From Haliclystus octoradiatus (taxonomy: Eukaryota > Cnidaria > Staurozoa > Stauromedusae > Haliclystidae), in the NCBI GenBank assembly GCA_916610825.1, contig OU744449.1:4104001-4168000 (forward strand): DNA of 64,000 nucleotides. The letters are read 5' to 3'. Shown piece by piece: positions 22,313 to 44,662 of this stretch. Under the pieces are notes generated by a model, which saw only the letters and a list, made by a program, of their open reading frames with translations, was not told the origin of the DNA and made no database searches. A program made the position numbers and the translations under genes. Position 1 is the first letter of the stretch. Every line of letters starts with the position of its first letter.

Positions 22313-22497
22313 CTATATGTTAACTGCAGTAGGATTATTAAGCTTTGAATAGCAGAATGTATCATTCGAGTTCAGTTGTTCTTTTGAGTTAGATAGTGTA
22401 GAATTGGTTATTTTGTTTGATTGAATTGAATTAACAAATAAGACAGATGACGGTTTTGTTGATGACGTATCTTTCATTAGAGAATCAAGCGGATTTC
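22313..22497 (-). CDS. Terminal exon, Ser/Asn-rich tail
   Basis: 185 bases, entered in phase 1 through the acceptor GATCTTTTAG. It encodes NPLDSLMKDTSSTKPSSVLF and a Ser/Asn-rich tail that ends NPTAVNI before TAG. The long clean frame and matching phase support it. Confidence 0.8.

Positions 22498-44662: not shown

Follow-up and report, generated by a model that had tools for sequence, protein, structure and literature searches.

Kelch propellers usually stand alone or are combined with ubiquitin-ligase parts such as BTB and F-box, among others. In LZTR1, BTB-BACK domains come after the propeller, and C-degron function is a property of KLHDC2, KLHDC3 and KLHDC10, proteins which to our knowledge carry no EF-hand. 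In EF-hands, calcium ligands occupy set positions of a twelve-residue loop that is flanked by helices, and such loops are usually paired. Both modules are common building blocks and their combination looks unusual. We know of no counterpart of an EF-hand and Kelch chain among the named human Kelch proteins, and none surfaced in literature searches judged from titles and the openings of abstracts. Among the matches listed (26 of 26 and, for the Kelch half, the best 60 of 90), no single solved structure matched both halves of the protein described here. No relatives were found in prokaryote and viral contigs (36 and 1 pattern matches, respectively), which says little for a eukaryotic gene. Such a chain may well sit unnamed in eukaryotic proteomes already.

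The locus lies in an AT-rich and intron-rich window, i.e. the whole 64-kb stretch of DNA that was analysed, whose genes and their structure suggest a eukaryote, probably an animal. We propose, with a probability of about 0.6, that a single gene on the minus strand, with 16 to 18 exons, joins an EF-hand region and a six-repeat Kelch propeller in a protein of about 700 residues. The gene model extends from 53227 to 22313 and consists of 18 candidate exons, 16 of which are considered well supported and two (exons 4 and 5) tentative; it encodes a 714-residue frame with a single stop at its end. Phases agree at all 17 junctions, every donor is GT (17/17) and every acceptor AG (17/17). This agreement arises partly by construction because GT, AG and phase guided the choice of candidates, and the independent evidence for the model is provided by the domain matches and by the exon scores relative to controls. 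The original prediction of a phase-consistent chain of 17 exons is retained for the phases and amended for the count. The ten Kelch-side exons (30119 to 22313) were placed by pattern and splice scans. Between 30.2 and 52.9 kb, exons were scored with splice-site matrices, the codon usage of the Kelch exons and a generic amino-acid composition, peptides with single-residue runs being left out; the ranks given below refer to the listed non-overlapping candidates of this interval.

52975..53227, minus strand: exon 1, putative start ATG at 53227, donor ATA/GTAAGT
46688..46772, minus strand: exon 2, helical region ahead of the EF-hand; score 17.9, rank 7
44565..44662, minus strand: exon 3, canonical EF-hand loop DYDKSGKISWEE; donor TGA/GTAAGT
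40205..40274, minus strand: exon 4 (tentative), extends EEFL as SKHSKLSEADVTTFASSAVKTLL; score 19.0, rank 5; in phase
39032..39075, minus strand: exon 5 (tentative), linker; score 16.7, rank 11; in the best chain at 3/5 penalties
36728..36813, minus strand: exon 6, linker; score 24.6, rank 3; in the best chain at 5/5 penalties
33549..33592, minus strand: exon 7, linker; score 26.2, joint top; in the best chain at 5/5 penalties
31259..31329, minus strand: exon 8, linker; score 26.2, joint top; in the best chain at 5/5 penalties
29913..30119, minus strand: exon 9, EWRDL (first strand of the propeller), then Kelch repeat 1; the Kelch part matches LZTR1, E 5.8e-14
28954..29036, minus strand: exon 10, Kelch (joined model, Pfam)
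27157..27229, minus strand: exon 11, Kelch repeat 2 (joined model, Pfam)
26603..26646, minus strand: exon 12, Kelch (joined model, Pfam)
26156..26270, minus strand: exon 13, Kelch repeat 3 (joined model, Pfam)
25527..25685, minus strand: exon 14, Kelch repeat 4 (joined model, Pfam)
24755..24825, minus strand: exon 15, Kelch (joined model, Pfam)
24580..24658, minus strand: exon 16, Kelch repeat 5 (joined model, Pfam)
23722..24099, minus strand: exon 17, inserted stretch of about 67 residues, then divergent Kelch repeat 6 (by eye)
22313..22497, minus strand: exon 18, polar tail and stop codon
22108..22113, minus strand: candidate poly(A) signal AATAAA, about 200 bases past the stop, the sole AATAAA/ATTAAA of 21500-22400 on this strand

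The C-terminal half is predicted to be a six-repeat Kelch propeller. Kelch matches were obtained in a Pfam scan of two minus-strand frames covering 22.3-34.3 kb, and the joined 714-residue protein matched Kelch with an E-value of 1.3e-63. Its top Pfam model is PF24681 (214.7 bits for a cut-off of 50); the Attractin/LZTR1 propeller PF24981 reached 175.3 bits (cut-off 50) and PF01344 126.2 bits (cut-off 20.1). For the hand-joined Kelch half alone, the E-values were 1.7e-64 with PF24681 and 6.5e-56 with PF24981. Five repeats were recognized from their glycine doublets in a pattern search covering all but the last part of the propeller; the sixth was recognized by eye from LLLIGG in exon 17, after the insertion. 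With Pfam scores far above cut-off and six repeats, the full propeller originally predicted at 30119 to 22313 on the minus strand is borne out, and a complete propeller is supported. The EWRDL strand ahead of repeat 1 probably closes the last blade.

Among the best 60 of 90 matches, the best solved relative of the Kelch half is LZTR1 (9mey, E 4.8e-34), followed by KLHDC3 (E 3.8e-21) and KLHDC10 (E 5e-21). The LZTR1/attractin-type propeller (PF24981) is common to LZTR1 and to this gene. They differ in that the propeller is preceded here by an EF-hand region and that BTB was not found downstream: no BTB match was obtained in the joined protein, nor at E up to 0.01 in the three minus-strand frames of 8001-22312, where a BTB domain split over short exons could be missed. 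The identity of the product as a standard LZTR1 was dropped because of this result. PF24681, the top Pfam model here, is that of KLHDC2, KLHDC3 and KLHDC10, from which this gene differs by its EF-hand region and its long linker.

In the N-terminal half, exon 1 encodes a serine- and asparagine-rich N-terminus with a DREPLL motif of the DxxxLL type and has a coding score of 21.1 for 84 codons; upstream of the putative ATG at 53227, the frame is still open to 53269. Exon 2 is perhaps a degenerate first EF-hand, as judged by eye only. A PS00018-like loop pattern occurs once in the six frames of the window, whereas 60 first-order Markov sequences averaged 0.05 occurrences, with at most 2 in any one of them. 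This occurrence, with the ligands D, D, S and E at positions 1, 3, 5 and 12, corresponds to the canonical loop that had been predicted at 44662-44565 on the minus strand. For an EF-hand domain, the Pfam scores point both ways. PF13202 is above its cut-off of 25.9 in the single-exon read-through frame, with 26.4 bits (E 5.3e-4 in a 3666-residue frame), but below it once the exon is joined to others: the direct joint to the Kelch exon scores 24.1 bits, the N-terminal 265 residues 23.4 and the full 714 residues 21.9. EF-hand_7 picks up two weak stretches within these 265 residues (E up to 1), the second without an assigned position.

Among solved structures, the EF-hand exon comes closest to calcium-dependent protein kinases and calcineurin B. 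The calcium-dependent kinase 2aao is matched at 7.1e-7 with the direct joint, 5.7e-6 with the read-through and 6.9e-6 with the 18-exon model, and calcineurin B (CnaB, 6tz7_B) at 1.9e-5 with the read-through, 4.4e-4 with the 18-exon model and 0.0032 with the direct joint. Since 2aao favours the direct joint and calcineurin B the read-through, these structure matches do not decide how exon 3 is joined. Unlike those EF-hand sensors, the present protein would have one canonical loop only, with weak matches confined to the loop and its helices, and a fusion to Kelch. The EF-hand match thus appears real-looking but weak. A resemblance of the N-terminal module to that of mEAK7, a member of the TLDc family, was considered and dropped, with no such protein among the 37 matches listed to solved structures at E up to 10.

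The EF-hand exon and the first Kelch exon are 14.4 kb apart. The three top candidates of the 30.2-52.9 kb interval, i.e. exons 8, 7 and 6 (26.2, 26.2 and 24.6; the next candidate scores 20.7), lie between them. In third-order Markov sequences of the interval, one candidate scoring at least 24.6 was observed in 2/100 and three in 0/100. In real DNA, control maxima were 19.5 on the opposite strand and 20.0 on the minus strand of 7.9-22.3 kb. The plus strand of 7.9-22.3 kb gave one candidate at 27.3, perhaps a real exon of another gene, which counts against this control as pure background. Phases agree at the four junctions linking the EF-hand exon, exons 6, 7 and 8 and the Kelch exon, an outcome expected by chance in 1 case in 81 if phases were random. 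Phase alone does not fix the model because the EF-hand exon can also be joined in phase to the Kelch exon with nothing between them. A model with this direct joint (13 exons, 609 residues) gave way to the 18-exon model in view of the three strong exons located between its EF-hand and Kelch exons.

A search of the chains formed by 13 candidates (8192 subsets, five penalties, stops arising at junctions ignored) yielded 68 phase-consistent subsets, 16 of which contain all three strong linker exons. These three alone make up the best chain at penalties 20 and 22. Further exons are added at penalties 14 to 18, and exon 4 (40274-40205) is in none of the five best chains. In a separate scored search over the interval, the chain preferred at a low penalty inserted 12 exons between exon 1 and the Kelch half; it was not adopted, as several of its members look like chance. 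Tentative exon 4 was adopted because it plausibly continues the EF-hand helix, its joint with exon 3 reading EEFLSKHSKL. Tentative exons 4 and 5 (114 bases) can be dropped together with the frame kept, and dropping one alone breaks it. Several phase-consistent chains fit from the EF-hand exon to 36813, which makes this stretch the weakest link of the model. Also against one gene, the splice and coding score of exon 3 is only 13.3 (rank 17 among the candidates of 30.2-52.9 kb), with a codon score of -2.8, its PF13202 score drops below the cut-off on joining, and calcineurin B is matched better by the read-through. One gene is favoured over two because the three top-scoring linker exons bridge the EF-hand to the Kelch half in phase. 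The joining of both halves in one gene, as put forward in the original prediction, is thereby supported at the sequence level by the bridging exons and their phases, short of proof. We infer that one transcript spans both halves.

Three other readings have to be considered. A chance match of the EF-hand loop is very improbable. The scores are admittedly modest, as PF13202 passes its cut-off in the long read-through frame and falls below it in the joined protein. Against chance, the Markov control predicts only 0.05 such loops per window, calcium-dependent kinases and calcineurin B are matched by the helix residues that precede the loop, and a good acceptor and a good donor flank the exon. The locus could also consist of two adjacent minus-strand genes, one for a small EF-hand protein, with exons starting at 53227, 46772 and 44662 and a stop near 44485, and one for a separate Kelch protein starting at the ATG 30099-30097 in the exon beginning at 30119. 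Such an arrangement is unlikely. It would account for the distance between the halves and for the start of the propeller soon after this ATG; reading through exon 3 also leaves the EF-hand frame open for 27 more residues, split codon included, and slightly improves the fit to EF-hand models (26.4 bits versus 24.1 and 23.4, and in the calcineurin B matches). A GTAAGT donor is nevertheless found right after the EF-hand helix (27 GTAAGT are present on the minus strand in 64 kb), and AATAAA and ATTAAA are absent from the minus strand at 44000-44600, after the EF-hand exon. The ATG 30099-30097 has C at -3 and a good acceptor, TTCTTAG, lies upstream of it; three strong in-phase exons sit between the halves.

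These bridging exons could belong to the Kelch gene while the EF-hand exons are part of another gene or an unused alternative first part. In favour of this arrangement, the model is weakest between the EF-hand exon and 36813, where exons 4 and 5 are tentative and more than one chain fits. We consider it quite unlikely: the EF-hand exon is in phase with exon 6 directly as well as with tentative exon 4, and no further exon bearing a domain was detected between the halves, where a scan of three minus frames and one of the three plus frames gave no Pfam domain at E up to 0.1. The single gene joining both halves is retained in what follows.

The protein encoded by this single gene would be cytosolic-looking, of about 700 residues. 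Its disordered N-terminus, which carries the DxxxLL motif, would be followed by the EF-hand region, where a single canonical loop is present, and by a polar linker; the six-repeat Kelch propeller, of the LZTR1/KLHDC type, would come next and a polar tail last. The loop residues suggest calcium binding and a calcium role. In the mechanism considered most likely, the loops of the propeller would dock a partner protein, and calcium at the EF-hand could move the propeller or the N-terminus or make either more or less available. The protein may in this way act as a calcium-responsive adaptor. An unnamed family of calcium-gated Kelch adaptors, in which an EF-hand and a linker precede an LZTR1-like propeller and calcium sets which partner is held, is a tentative and rather doubtful extension of this proposal. 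With a Kelch propeller and a calcium sensor in one chain, calcium would seem to be coupled directly to partner docking. If the domain combination is only neutral, the locus still offers a useful gene model, with linker exons likely to escape domain-based annotation.

Other features were noted in the window. No Rfam family was detected at threshold within it. Intron 1 of the model contains a tandem direct repeat at 47470-49985, with a period of about 976 bases and copies about 99.3-99.5% identical, bordered by long TAA arrays. Trinucleotide TAA/ATT arrays of about 70 to 177 units are located at 43029-43303, 46871-47402, 49985-50242, 50727-50937 and 56104-56419. Palindrome-like 11-base arrays of the GTTCATGAACT type recur at 39433-39576, 40515-40542, 41934-42031, 43936-43967, 44085-44388 and 45111-45143. 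On the plus strand, the candidate exons 8432-8485 and 13122-13181 encode the similar peptides NYWQKVRDCYKKLEK and SYWQRASKYYRKSIR and are perhaps related exons of one gene. On the minus strand, a peptide encoded at 59473-59607 ends with WNSLPEEV, an ending that we take to resemble a LINE reverse transcriptase tail; it had no Pfam match with an approximate query, two letters off. Directly upstream of the gene, a PLAC8/cornifelin-type gene is proposed on the minus strand at 54910-58165 from three hand-joined candidate exons (PF04749, E 1.5e-24), the end of the last exon being guessed. Finally, an exon at 62259-62370, minus strand, matches the vitamin-B1-binding domain of thiamin pyrophosphokinase (PF04265, E 4.5e-9).
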